This document shows, piece by piece, positions 7,927-10,316 of a stretch of 64,000 nucleotides of DNA. The stretch comes from Sphingomonas cavernae (lineage in GTDB: Bacteria > Pseudomonadota > Alphaproteobacteria > Sphingomonadales > Sphingomonadaceae). The stretch spans positions 1,366,501 to 1,430,500 of the forward strand of contig NZ_QYUM01000003.1 of assembly GCF_003590775.1 (NCBI RefSeq), read 5' to 3'. The position numbers and the translations under genes are program-made. The stretch's first letter is position 1. Each line of letters begins with the position of its first letter. The notes under the pieces are model-generated. The model made no database searches. It worked only from the letters and a program-made list of their open reading frames with translations, and was not told the origin of the DNA.

Positions 7927-8571
7927 ATGCGGATGACACCGCCTTTACCCCGTCTCTATTCCTTCCGCCGCTGCCCCTATGCGATGCGCGCGCGGATGGC
8001 GCTGCTGGTGAGCGGCGTGTCCTTCAGCCTGACCGAAGTCTCGCTCAAGGCCAAGCCGCCCGCCATGCTCGCGGCTAGCCCCAAGGGAACGGTGCCCGTC
8101 CTCATTTTTCCGGGCGGGCAGGTGCTGGACGAGAGCCTCGACATCATGCGCTGGGCGCTGGGGCAGAATGATCCGGAGAACTGGCTGGTCGATGATCGCG
8201 AGGGCAGCGAGACGCACGCCCTGATCGCCCGCAATGACGGCCCCTTCAAGCATCACCTCGACCGCTACAAATATGCGACCCGCTACTCGGACGATGGCGA
8301 TGCGATGTCGGCGGCCGCCCATCGCGCCGCCGCCATGGAAATCCTCGTCGACCTCGATACCCGCCTTGCGGGGCGCCTCAATCTCGTCGCCGAGCGTCCG
8401 ACCCTCGCCGATATCGCGCTCTTTCCATTCGTTCGACAATTTGCGAGGCATGATCCCGACTGGTGGGCCAGCCAGCCCTTCGCACATCTTCAGCAGTGGC
8501 TCGAGCGGCACCTGTCATCACCGCTCTTCCAGATCGCAATACGCAAGGACGCATCCGTCGACGCGCCATAA
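7927..8571 (+). CDS. glutathione S-transferase family protein
   Basis: The 214-residue protein opens with a thioredoxin-fold GST domain: LYSFRRCPYAMRARMALLVSG at residues 9-29, with a CPYA active-site-type motif, then SPKGTVPVLIF and the DESLDIMRWAL segment that binds the gamma-glutamyl moiety. A helical C-terminal domain follows (RPTLADIALFPFVRQFA). It probably uses glutathione for conjugation, reduction or isomerisation. It is flanked by repeats on both sides and separated from the Rieske operon, so a functional link is weak. Confidence 0.85.
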   Translation: MRMTPPLPRLYSFRRCPYAMRARMALLVSGVSFSLTEVSLKAKPPAMLAASPKGTVPVLIFPGGQVLDESLDIMRWALGQNDPENWLVDDREGSETHALIARNDGPFKHHLDRYKYATRYSDDGDAMSAAAHRAAAMEILVDLDTRLAGRLNLVAERPTLADIALFPFVRQFARHDPDWWASQPFAHLQQWLERHLSSPLFQIAIRKDASVDAP

Positions 8572-8623
8572 CGTGCTTGGCCATCTGCATGTCTGAGATG
8601 TCGTGGTGTCCGGACATTGCCCT

Positions 8624-8787
8624 GAGCCCTCTCCCGCCTTCGCGGGAGAGAGTTGGGTGAGGGTCTTCTTCTCTCGCCTCTATTCCGCTCAAGAGGCTGA
8701 AAACGAGTAAAAGACCCTCACCGACTTCGACTAGGCCGCGAGCGGCCAAGTCTCCATTGCCTCTCCCGCGAAGGCGGGAGAGGGCTC
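8624..8787. repeat. Inverted-repeat intergenic element
   Basis: Outer arms 8624-8650 and 8761-8787 are reverse complements of one another: the left reads GAGCCCTCTCCCGCC, then TTCGCGGGAGAG, and the right mirrors it. Inner arms 8656-8667 (GGTGAGGGTCTT) and 8711-8722 (AAGACCCTCACC) also pair exactly. Each outer arm is itself a short hairpin. No coding signal is evident inside. It is a REP/BIME-like element of unknown role. Confidence 0.85.
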
Positions 8788-8809
8788 ATATCAAACGTCC
8801 GACTTGTGG

Positions 8810-8828
8810 GCGTGTCCGGACGGTCCGG
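8810..8828. repeat. 19-bp direct repeat, copy 1 (contains a palindrome)
   Basis: The 19-mer begins GCGTGTCCGGACGG and ends TCCGG; its last 13 bases are a perfect palindrome (CCGGAC-G-GTCCGG). An identical copy in the same orientation lies at 9155-9173. Together they bracket the 34-bp inverted repeats and the GIY-YIG remnant. Confidence 0.8.
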
Positions 8829-8894
8829 TTTTGTCGAGGGCAAACGATGTCGCCAGCGTCGAAAAGGTCGGGGTTAGCGGACGTTTCGTAACCT

Positions 8895-8928
8895 CGTCAC
8901 CCCGGGCTTGACCCGGGGTCCCGCTTTT
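8895..8928. repeat. 34-bp terminal inverted repeat, left copy
   Basis: This copy starts CGTCACCCCGGGCTTGACCC and ends CCCGCTTTT. It is the exact reverse complement, 34 of 34 bases, of 9097-9130. Each copy is also internally palindromic around CCCGGG-CTTGA-CCCGGG. It marks the left end of a unit of about 236 bp containing a truncated GIY-YIG gene. Confidence 0.9.
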
Positions 8929-8942
8929 CACATCCATCGGTG

Positions 8943-9092
8943 ATGGAGCGCGCGAGACAAGGCGGCTGGGTTTATATCATGGCCGATCTCGCGCACGAAA
9001 AACGTTTCAAGCGCTGGCATCGCCAATGGAAGTTCGACCTGATCGAATGCGGCAATCCCGACTGGCAGGATATGTTCGCCTTACTGGCCTGA
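8943..9092 (+). pseudogene. GIY-YIG nuclease remnant with internal deletion
   Basis: The short frame of 49 codons joins the two ends of a GIY-YIG (UPF0213-type) nuclease. The N-terminal part, GGWVYIMAD at residues 7-15, matches the usual first beta strand. The C-terminal part, HEKRFKRWHRQWKFDLI and then NPDWQDMF, matches the usual EKxIKxWxRxWKxxLI...NPxWxDL ending. About 45 middle residues, including the YIG half and the catalytic Arg, are missing, so it cannot be an active nuclease. It lies exactly between the two 34-bp inverted repeats, which suggests a decayed mobile or REP-associated unit. Assignment rests on motif recall, not a search. Confidence 0.75.
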
Positions 9093-9096
9093 TCCA

Positions 9097-9130
9097 AAAA
9101 GCGGGACCCCGGGTCAAGCCCGGGGTGACG
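9097..9130. repeat. 34-bp terminal inverted repeat, right copy
   Basis: Exact reverse complement of 8895-8928. It begins AAAAGCGGGACCCCGGG and ends GGGGTGACG, and starts 4 nt after the stop codon of the GIY-YIG remnant. A further short palindrome (AAAGGA...TCCTTT, 9132-9149) follows it. Confidence 0.9.
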
Positions 9131-9154
9131 ACAAAGGAAGCGTCTCCTTTGCCG

Positions 9155-9173
9155 GCGTGTCCGGACGGTCCGG
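9155..9173. repeat. 19-bp direct repeat, copy 2
   Basis: Identical to 8810-8828 in the same orientation. It lies 24 nt outside the right 34-bp repeat, whereas copy 1 lies 66 nt outside the left one, so it is not a simple target-site duplication at the inverted-repeat boundary. Confidence 0.75.
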
Positions 9174-9246
9174 ATTCTGCATCCGCTTTCGAGGACGGCA
9201 CCGTCCGAGATTGGGTCGAAACCGGCCGACAAGCGTTCGAGACGCC

Positions 9247-10257
9247 TCACCGAAAGGCCGGAATGACCTCGTTCGCGAAGAGTTCTGCGTAAGGCACGAA
9301 TTTCGCGGGCGGCAGGCCGGACGGGAGCATCATCATGAAGTGCTCCACGGGGATCCGCGCCTGCATCGCCCTGAAATAGTTGACCGCCTGTTCAGGCGTC
9401 AGGATCTTCAGGATCCCGCTCGTCTTGAAGGCCTCGAGCGACATGGGCTTGAGCGCAACATCGTCGATGCCTGAGGCCTTGTCCTCGTTCAGCCACTGGC
9501 CATAGGTATTGTTGACGTGATGGAAATAGGGCGCGAGCTCTTCCATCGCGGCGTCGGGATCGCGCGCGACCGTCAGGAACAGCCCCTGGATGCGGATGCG
9601 CGCCTCGGCCGGGTCCTTGCCCTCTTCGCGCAGCTTGTCCGCATAGAGGCCGCACACGTCCTCATTGCCGAAATAGCCGTCGGCATATCTGGCGACGCGC
9701 GCCAGCGCCTTTTCGGCAAAGCCGCCGATATAGAGCGGGATCTGGCCGCGTGGGGACGTCGGCATGATCGCCGCGTTGCTGACGTTGTAATGTTTGCCTT
9801 CGAAGCTGACCGTCTCACCCGCCCACAGCCTGCGCACGATCTCAAGAAACTCGTCGAACCGGCTGCCCCGCCTGGAGAAGTCGACGCCGTAAGCTTCGGT
9901 CTCGCGGCGACGATAGCCGATGGCCAGCGCCATTTCGAGGCGGCCATTGGACAGGATGTCGAGCACCGCGCATTCCTCGGCGAAGCGCACGGGATGGTAG
10001 AGCGGGGCGAGCGCGATCGCCGAACCGAGCCTGATCCGTTTGGTGCGCGCGGCAATCGCGGCGAGCGCAACGAGCGGGGAGGGCATATAGCCGTCTTCGG
10101 CGCCGTGATGTTCGGGCACCCACGCACCCTCGAACCCGACCGTCTCGCTCCACGCGATGAAATCCAGTATCTCGGCGTAGAGGTCGGCAGATGGCCGCTG
10201 CCACTGCGGCGGATTCCGGAAATCGCAGAGATAGCCGAACGTCAGTTTATTGAGCAT
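9247..10257 (-). CDS. LLM-class flavin-dependent oxidoreductase
   Basis: The 336-residue luciferase-like monooxygenase fold starts MLNKLTFGYLCDFRNP and has GFEGAWVPEHHG, the RIRLGSAIALAPLYHP strand, and LDILSNGRLEMALAIGYRRRE with the family SxGRxxxxxGxG-type loop. The middle segment EIVRRLWAGETVSFEGKHY is also typical. Such enzymes use FMN or F420; this one looks FMN-type by its EHHG motif, with low certainty. The ATG at 10257 is chosen over an upstream start that would run into the repeat at 10317. It is the last gene in a minus-strand series behind a TauD/TfdA dioxygenase. Confidence 0.85.
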   Translation of the reverse strand: MLNKLTFGYLCDFRNPPQWQRPSADLYAEILDFIAWSETVGFEGAWVPEHHGAEDGYMPSPLVALAAIAARTKRIRLGSAIALAPLYHPVRFAEECAVLDILSNGRLEMALAIGYRRRETEAYGVDFSRRGSRFDEFLEIVRRLWAGETVSFEGKHYNVSNAAIMPTSPRGQIPLYIGGFAEKALARVARYADGYFGNEDVCGLYADKLREEGKDPAEARIRIQGLFLTVARDPDAAMEELAPYFHHVNNTYGQWLNEDKASGIDDVALKPMSLEAFKTSGILKILTPEQAVNYFRAMQARIPVEHFMMMLPSGLPPAKFVPYAELFANEVIPAFR

Positions 10258-10316
10258 GGCGCGTTTTCCACCGTTCCGGAGCTTGCAGCCAGAAAGAGCG
10301 TTGTGTTCATCCATTG

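Follow-up and report, generated by a model that had tools for sequence, protein, structure and literature searches.

Inverted REP hairpins around small GIY-YIG nuclease genes: a deleted copy in Sphingomonas cavernae and candidate mobile units in other bacteria

Results

A deleted GIY-YIG gene between two REPs in Sphingomonas cavernae

The window, i.e. the whole stretch of 64,000 nucleotides analysed here, is part of contig C3 of the Sphingomonas cavernae genome (4.24 Mb in five contigs). Between a glutathione S-transferase gene (7927-8571, plus strand) and a luciferase-like monooxygenase gene (9247-10314, minus strand) it carries two repetitive extragenic palindromic (REP) sequences, the left at 8894-8928 on the plus strand and the right, its perfect inverted copy, at 9097-9131 on the minus strand. 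The two arms are 100% complementary and 168 nt apart; an earlier, sequence-only reading had described them as a perfect inverted pair, which they are, but had given their length as 34 bp instead of 35 bp. Each arm opens with TCGTCACCCC, has its CGTC tag facing outward and contains a hairpin with an 8-bp stem and a 5-nt loop. Folded as DNA the arm has a z score of -3.2 (one of 200 shuffles folds equally well), and its 23-nt core has two matches in the window at up to three mismatches and none in 100 dinucleotide shuffles. Tag, stem and loop agree with the CGTC REPs of Di Nocera et al. (2013), which are defined by a CGTC (or TGTC/CCTC) tag, a stem of 8-9 bp, a loop of 4-5 nt, complementary A/T at stem positions 1 and 2, and a CCA tail (PMC3733652). 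The window stem begins A-T then C-G and the tail is CCC; the REP of another locus in this genome, L010, has AT and CCA.

Between the arms lies a frame of 49 codons plus TGA (8943-9092, plus strand), and the right REP begins 4 nt past its stop codon, as had been noticed. By itself the frame has no Pfam hit. It aligns, at 91% identity across the residues kept, with the protein of a full-length GIY-YIG gene elsewhere on the same contig (L009, G000:C3:1126414-1126632), which lies between identical 35-bp arms. The homology blocks stop at 8988 and restart at 8989, and this junction marks a 150-bp in-frame internal deletion relative to L009, i.e. 50 missing codons, so that the unit measures 238 bp from REP to REP compared with 388 bp for L009. 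The frame was thus rightly taken for a GIY-YIG gene without its catalytic middle, and the contrary outcome, a frame that aligns to nothing in the family, did not occur. The remnant keeps the first strand and the C-terminal third, including the GIY tyrosine, the glutamate (EKR) and the NP asparagine, and is without Y17 (the YIG tyrosine), R27 and H31. Among 17 aligned proteins of the same type (type A, see below) Y6, Y17, R27, H31 and N83 are invariant and E64 is present in at least 90%; we presume that the two tyrosines and the arginine, histidine, glutamate and asparagine have the catalytic roles they have in I-TevI. Full-length copies score above the PF01541 cut-off (L009 41.4 bits, L005 57.7, L010 41.0, L001 65.6 and L003 62.6). 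A genome-wide pattern search for the exact core finds four places, all on C3, namely the window pair and the L009 pair. Judged from its sequence, the window unit appears to be a MITE-like, non-autonomous, internally deleted copy with a full-length partner, L009, in the same genome.

Comparison of copies further shows that the REPs "exactly" enclose the gene, as had been stated, but not the mobile unit, since copies share about 26 bp more outside each repeat. The left outer flank common to copies elsewhere covers 8868-8893 (its start differs by the copy compared, 8849-8882), and the right one, CAAAGG...CCTTTG, covers 9132-9157; it extends to 9157 in L208 and L209, 9171 in L207 and 9177 in L009.

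Two other repeats were noted near the unit. One is a second perfect inverted repeat of 28 bp, of the CCCTCTCCCGC type, at 8623-8650 and 8761-8788 (110 nt apart), with more copies elsewhere in the genome. The other is a 39-nt direct repeat (79% identity, GTGTCCGGACGGTCCGG core) at 8793-8831 upstream of the unit and at 9138-9176 at the right outer flank, which is perhaps part of an older repeat that the unit entered.

Stand-alone GIY-YIG genes of this genome lie between inverted palindromes

The genome has 12 PF01541 matches, one of them in a 642-aa frame reading as uvrC. The other 11, here called stand-alone although some frames run beyond the right palindrome (L002: 396 aa), all lie between inverted palindromes (11/11), and uvrC does not. 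When each upstream flank was scored against each downstream flank in an 11 x 11 matrix, the gene's own pair was strictly the best in its row and column in 11 of 11 cases; related repeats are visible as cross scores of 24 and 20 for L006/L010 and 19 for L001/L003.

A scan that was blind to genes and covered C3 (1.6 Mb, one of the five contigs) and gaps of 80-700 bp returned 19 inverted pairs. All seven with a gap of 200-500 bp, a range picked after the genes had been seen, enclose a GIY-YIG gene, and together they account for the seven stand-alone genes on C3. Of the bracketed genes of this genome, the five checked by profile are all PF01541. The remaining pairs are the window remnant (gap 168 bp) and 11 with gaps of 79-131 bp, i.e. 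on C3 no inverted pair with a gap above 131 bp is free of a GIY-YIG gene or remnant. Several of the nuclease-linked REP types are also dispersed as inverted doublets approximately 40-70 bp apart. At up to two mismatches C3 has 26 copies of the L005 type, 21 of the L006/L010 type and 18 of the L011 type, many of them as inverted pairs, as well as 17 copies of the L007 type, mainly single. The window REP type has only four copies on C3, all around GIY-YIG genes. Most of the GIY-YIG nucleases of this genome are single copies.

The association extends to other genomes

Two types of small GIY-YIG protein, A (...GTLYIGVTSDL...) and B (...YYTGHTDDLERR...), were distinguished by a loose motif rule, by which L120 is labelled B and groups with A, and L344 and L358 are labelled A and do not. 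A matched inverted pair was defined by a score of at least 16 within 350 bp on each side of the gene. PF01541 matches number 122 across the 38 other genomes of the family; 65 of these loci, with full flanks, were examined (the others being mainly uvrC-length frames and partial matches), and 48 of the 65 have a matched pair. In a sample of the class the count is 12/22 (8/18 outside the family), and in a set of named records from several phyla, found by protein similarity alone (the best 80 of at least 581 relatives, 74 with full flanks), it is 45/74. Rows dropped were L128 and L139 (contig ends) and L214, L215, L220 and L404 (partial matches) in the family set, L349 and L351 (contig ends) and L364 (partial) in the class set, L367 (contig end) among uvrC frames, and six of 80 with short flanks in the named set.

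Bracketed loci occur in records titled Erythrobacter, Thalassospira, Tistlia, Dechloromonas, Pseudoxanthomonas, Lysobacter, Rudaea, Nitrospira and others, and, of nine loci from records titled Sphingomonas in the named set, only two (L252 and L259) are bracketed. In Neisseria, a locus from a MAG (L226) lies within a matched pair, and N. gonorrhoeae L302 has a more distant pair amid dRS3-like repeats. Inverted pairs were also found at seven of the eight plasmid loci examined, of 33 hits. On a Rhizobium tumorigenes plasmid (L460) a type A GIY-YIG gene is without an inverted pair within 350 bp.

Next to the exact repeat of the window GIY-YIG genes are strongly enriched, so that the lack of enrichment named earlier as a refuting result did not occur: 10 of 14 mismatch-free copies in 39 genomes are within 700 bp of a PF01541 match, which by chance would apply to about 0.2% of the sequence; copies with one or two mismatches are left out of this count, and the window pair accounts for two of the four misses. 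The same repeat flanks full-length relatives, the existence of which had been anticipated, namely L009 in the own genome, L209 in a congener (G040) and L221 and L222 in other genera, and the repeat also bounds full-length relatives on the three Sphingobium plasmids examined. The suggestion of a REP-nuclease system is supported; the system extends beyond sphingomonads and has many repeat sequences.

Could the pairing arise by chance, or as an artefact of a flexible search in REP-rich genomes? CGTC REPs are common, and when the upstream and downstream flanks of the named loci were mismatched, 546, 459 and 362 of 3000 draws (12-18%) passed scores of 16, 18 and 20, respectively. These flanks were rejected as a null, since separate loci share the common REP types; among 27 family loci, a score of 20 was passed by 16 of 702 mismatched combinations. 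The nulls relied on are displaced windows, i.e. the same loci shifted by 500-700 bp, and ParE toxin genes of the same family sample, which have matched pairs in 4/334 and 0/30 cases, respectively. Frames of uvrC length gave 0/10; this control tests the domain and not the gene ends, because uvrC flanks fall within a long frame. If pair matching is ignored and outward CGTC-tagged hairpins are required on both sides, 81/130 type A loci have them, compared with 0/30 for ParE, 0/10 for uvrC and 0/195 for displaced windows. With these counts we regard chance or artefact as a negligible explanation. Loci with a RAYT domain were not useful as a positive control (five of seven testable; best inverted-pair scores 17, 14 and three with none).

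No matched pair was found at 42 of the 130 type A loci, 31 of which are also without outward tagged hairpins on both sides, and the other 11 have such hairpins all the same, which shows that pair matching overlooks genuine cases. In a tree of 94 proteins (four of 98 rows with stops dropped; few columns, many unresolved forks) six divergent basal rows are all without REPs. The bracketing label changes 18 times on the tree compared with a shuffled mean of 21.5 (12 of 500 shuffles as low), so the unbracketed cases are scattered and the clustering is weak.

Protein and REP vary together

Type A proteins pair with CGTC REPs, including GCTGAACTTGTTTCAGC and CCCGGGCTTGACCCGGG. At type A loci scoring at least 18 the tag faces outward in 59 cases, inward in eight and both ways in four, and is unclear in 13. 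Type B proteins pair with other palindromes, e.g. CCGTTCGTCCTGAGCTTGTCGAAGGAC and CCCGAGCGAAGTCGAGGG; a CGTC association for type B as well was not supported (0/25 B-labelled loci with tagged hairpins on both sides). At some type B loci, e.g. L116, L123 and L131, the frames pass through the right palindrome, which adds repeat-encoded C-terminal peptides (RPSTSLGT, FDKLR).

Protein distance correlates with REP distance (Mantel) for type A (n=67, r=0.40, 0/5000 permutations; 17 of 84 rows dropped for unclear or double tag orientation), both within the family (n=29, r=0.40, 0/5000) and in the named set (n=35, r=0.37, 6/5000), and likewise for type B (n=23, r=0.50, 0/5000). Individual clades have their own hairpins. 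Proteins of the GWVYIMADRYRG clade are mostly found between CCGGG-TTGA-CCCGG-like hairpins (with L388 as an exception), a clade across several genera between GTCATGCTGAACTTGTTTCAGCATCC or compensated variants, and type B proteins with FCDFT between GAGCGAAGTCGAG palindromes. This correlation supports recognition of the REP by the protein and does not prove it, because shared descent of whole loci gives it too.

The same data bear on the idea that the REPs or REP doublets are moved by a RAYT or a general transposase and that the GIY-YIG genes are chance cargo. RAYT transposases are linked to REPs in other bacteria (PMC3116915, PMC2817692), and Di Nocera et al. leave room for a wide range of transposases as possible movers of CGTC REPs (PMC3733652). 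A RAYT as the mobiliser was rejected for S. cavernae, the genome of which has no Y1 transposase (Y1_Tnp, PF01797) match at E 1e-5; only six of 39 family genomes have one. Moreover, chance cargo would be GIY-YIG neither in seven of seven pairs nor in step with the REP, and ParE genes, which are likewise small and accessory, are never bracketed in the sample given above. We therefore consider this explanation improbable.

Copies, derivatives and sites without the unit

In a congener (G021) a unit of 457-458 bp occurs at three sites unrelated to one another, each time with the same ends. All three copies start with CGACCACTTGCGGAC, and the last 15 nt have two base differences in L216. Two of the copies differ by 1 nt in 458 and have a frameshift in common, which means that the frameshifted copy was duplicated; this would fit action in trans, with recombination as the alternative. 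The third copy, L216, has an intact frame and tagged hairpins on both sides; its matched-pair score is 0 because its two REPs are different variants. In G040 a full-length copy of 389 bp is accompanied by derivatives with gene remains of 195, 191, 190 and 140 bp and by doublets of 89-91 bp without gene remains. Three of these loci (L207, L208 and L210) keep both ends of the gene region, and hence arose by deletion from a filled unit.

Units are absent from several sites in relatives, in line with the comparison of filled and empty sites that had been proposed, though the window site is not a clean case: G040 is without the unit there, but has other DNA of approximately 1 kb in that position. 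At the orthologous place G040, G039 and G021 are all without the region that holds the L008 unit, the REPs next to it and an IS, and a REP doublet near L009 (approximately 105-108 bp including short flanks) is absent in G040, G041 and G039. In Azospirillum lipoferum 4B the gene and two REP doublets lie between sufB and sufC, whereas the remaining 11 Azospirillum records, among the 30 matches listed, are without the gene (three confirmed by alignment); by eye, no REP is present at the gene-free junctions of A. ramasamyi and A. oryzae. Sinorhizobium meliloti Ak57 (L458) has a full GIY-YIG copy between gltA and lpxB and, at approximately 1420-2280 of L458, a derivative seen by eye that adjoins the full unit and is broken like the window copy. 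Three Sinorhizobium records with 95% identity are without the Ak57 units (junction inspected in one), and Sinorhizobium K101 has REP-like repeats and no gene at the Ak57 gene site. The L008 and sufB-sufC sites differ by composites (the gene with REP doublets, or with an IS) and not by one bare unit. By eye we found no clear case of a target duplication.

The IS at L008 (L008:1795-2649, own genome, contig C4) is approximately 855 bp long, lies between REPs beside the GIY-YIG unit and has 20 further near-identical copies in the genome; by eye we take it to be IS5-like.

These sites address the main rival, which stays within the same idea. GIY-YIG homing endonucleases exist, and a free-standing one might cut empty REP doublets and be copied in by break repair, the REPs having been moved by other means. 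The gene is found directly inward of two REPs, and the empty doublets consist of REPs of this kind; such homing would suit that arrangement, and likewise the gene-free REP-like repeats of K101. Against it, the G021 unit includes DNA beyond the REPs, with the same end points at three unrelated sites, the gene-free sufB-sufC junctions of A. ramasamyi and A. oryzae show no REP by eye, and the three G040 loci are deletions of a filled unit. The outer ends and the REP-free sites thus speak against homing, which we judge unlikely, if somewhat less so than chance cargo.

It might also be argued that nothing moves and that the palindromes are terminators or mRNA-stabilising hairpins of GIY-YIG repair genes that serve the host. 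REP hairpins can serve as RNA elements (PMC3733652), and in 27 of 63 outward type A cases the REP starts 0-15 nt past the stop codon. However, terminators need no matching inverted copy upstream, and a purely regulatory role does not account for the G021 unit, found with the same ends at sites that have nothing else in common, or for units missing in close relatives; we hold it to be very improbable.

Discussion

We propose that the GIY-YIG protein probably mobilises its cognate REPs and that the window holds a deleted copy of a small mobile unit. An intact unit has approximately 400 bp from REP to REP, or approximately 450-460 bp with the outer flanks where these were measurable, and its only gene, between the two inverted REP hairpins, encodes a GIY-YIG nuclease of approximately 95 aa. 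The architecture, its association with the gene relative to controls, the co-variation of protein and REP, the copies of one unit with shared ends and the sites without it in relatives are observed; recognition, cutting, action in trans and copying are steps that we infer. The nuclease would recognise its cognate REP as a hairpin, single-stranded or cruciform, and cut beside it, and so start the copying or transfer of DNA bounded by two such REPs. This DNA could be its own gene (an autonomous unit), a deletion derivative such as the window copy, or a minimal REP doublet; replication or repair would copy it, with derivatives and doublets following in trans. GIY-YIG enzymes cut by hydrolysis and form no covalent tyrosine intermediate, so host repair or replication would have to complete the reaction. 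Several observations weigh against the proposal: the type A loci without REPs, the low share of bracketed loci outside the family (8/18) and among records titled Sphingomonas, the other DNA at the window site in G040, the composite differences at the L008 and sufB-sufC sites, and the failure to see a clear target duplication; the protein/REP correlation could in part reflect shared descent.

A broader version of this proposal, to which we give an even chance, is that both subfamilies of small GIY-YIG nuclease serve as transposases, and that the units they move form a new class of minimal bacterial elements (approximately 0.4-0.46 kb). Type A would then be the source of most CGTC REPs, from the alphaproteobacteria to Nitrospira and Neisseria (dRS3-like), and type B that of CTGAGCTTGTCGAAGG and CCCGAGCGAAGTCGAGGG, repeats unrelated to these; REP doublets would represent the last stage of deletion and be moved in trans, and each enzyme would evolve together with its hairpin, the two forming a recognition pair that can be read from sequence. 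That most nucleases of the S. cavernae genome are single copies also fits a domesticated enzyme, as discussed for RAYTs (PMC3116915), and counts against the proposal.

CGTC REPs occur as many dispersed copies, mostly inverted dimers and mainly in alphaproteobacteria, and were described in 2013 as apparently having no dedicated transposase (PMC3733652). The term 'giy-yig' has no occurrence in PMC3733652, and no paper among the open literature searched has 'GIY-YIG' together with 'repetitive extragenic palindromic'. A link between GIY-YIG proteins and REPs was likewise not found among the matches listed from that literature, mostly titles and abstract openings, with subscription papers and preprints outside its scope. 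Since the pairs are found in many bacteria, the GIY-YIG family makes a good candidate for the missing machinery behind the spread of a common REP class. CGTC REPs thereby gain a named candidate enzyme family, matched enzyme/hairpin pairs, intact and broken copies, and unit-free sites, which makes the question testable with short hairpin DNA and these small proteins in purified form. Confirmation would mean that partnerships between REPs and nucleases have arisen at least twice, the enzymes being unrelated, and that small GIY-YIG proteins have a role. In plasmid records such proteins are named 'GIY-YIG nuclease family protein', 'hypothetical protein' or 'excinuclease ABC subunit C'; the GIY-YIG gene at AP027312.1 94116-94355 (L454) is an example of the last.

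Comparison with known systems

By sequence profile the closest solved structures are small GIY-YIG proteins of the UPF0213 type (PDB 1zg2, E 3.7e-8, and 1ywl, E 1.7e-6), both entered as hypothetical proteins. Homing endonucleases of the I-TevI type have the same catalytic domain and spread selfishly via DNA cutting. The units described here differ from them in that no intron or intein was seen, approximately 95 aa leave little room for a separate DNA-binding domain, and the units are bounded by REPs. In IS200/IS605 elements the hairpins are set inward of the element ends and there is no clear target duplication. Our units share the inset hairpins and show no clear duplication either, but they have no HuH transposase, their REPs are inverted, and they are smaller than 0.5 kb.

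The closest likeness is to the REPtron (REP/REPIN with a RAYT, TnpA-REP), where a small nuclease-type gene is also flanked by its own linked type of REP, the REPs are also dispersed as inverted doublets, and distinct enzyme/REP pairs are present in one genome; every RAYT is tied to a REP family of its own (PMC6006769, PMC3116915). The enzyme is unrelated, i.e. a GIY-YIG protein (PF01541) of approximately 95 aa in place of the HuH/Y1 RAYT, and the tag is CGTC where RAYT REPs have GTAG. The parallel that the sequence-only reading had drawn between RAYT/REP and a GIY-YIG protein is supported, and the nuclease would be what moves the repeats. The unit is thus neither a RAYT system, from which enzyme and tag set it apart, nor an IS200/IS605 element, which would have a HuH enzyme; by analogy, it would work like a REPtron with an unrelated enzyme.
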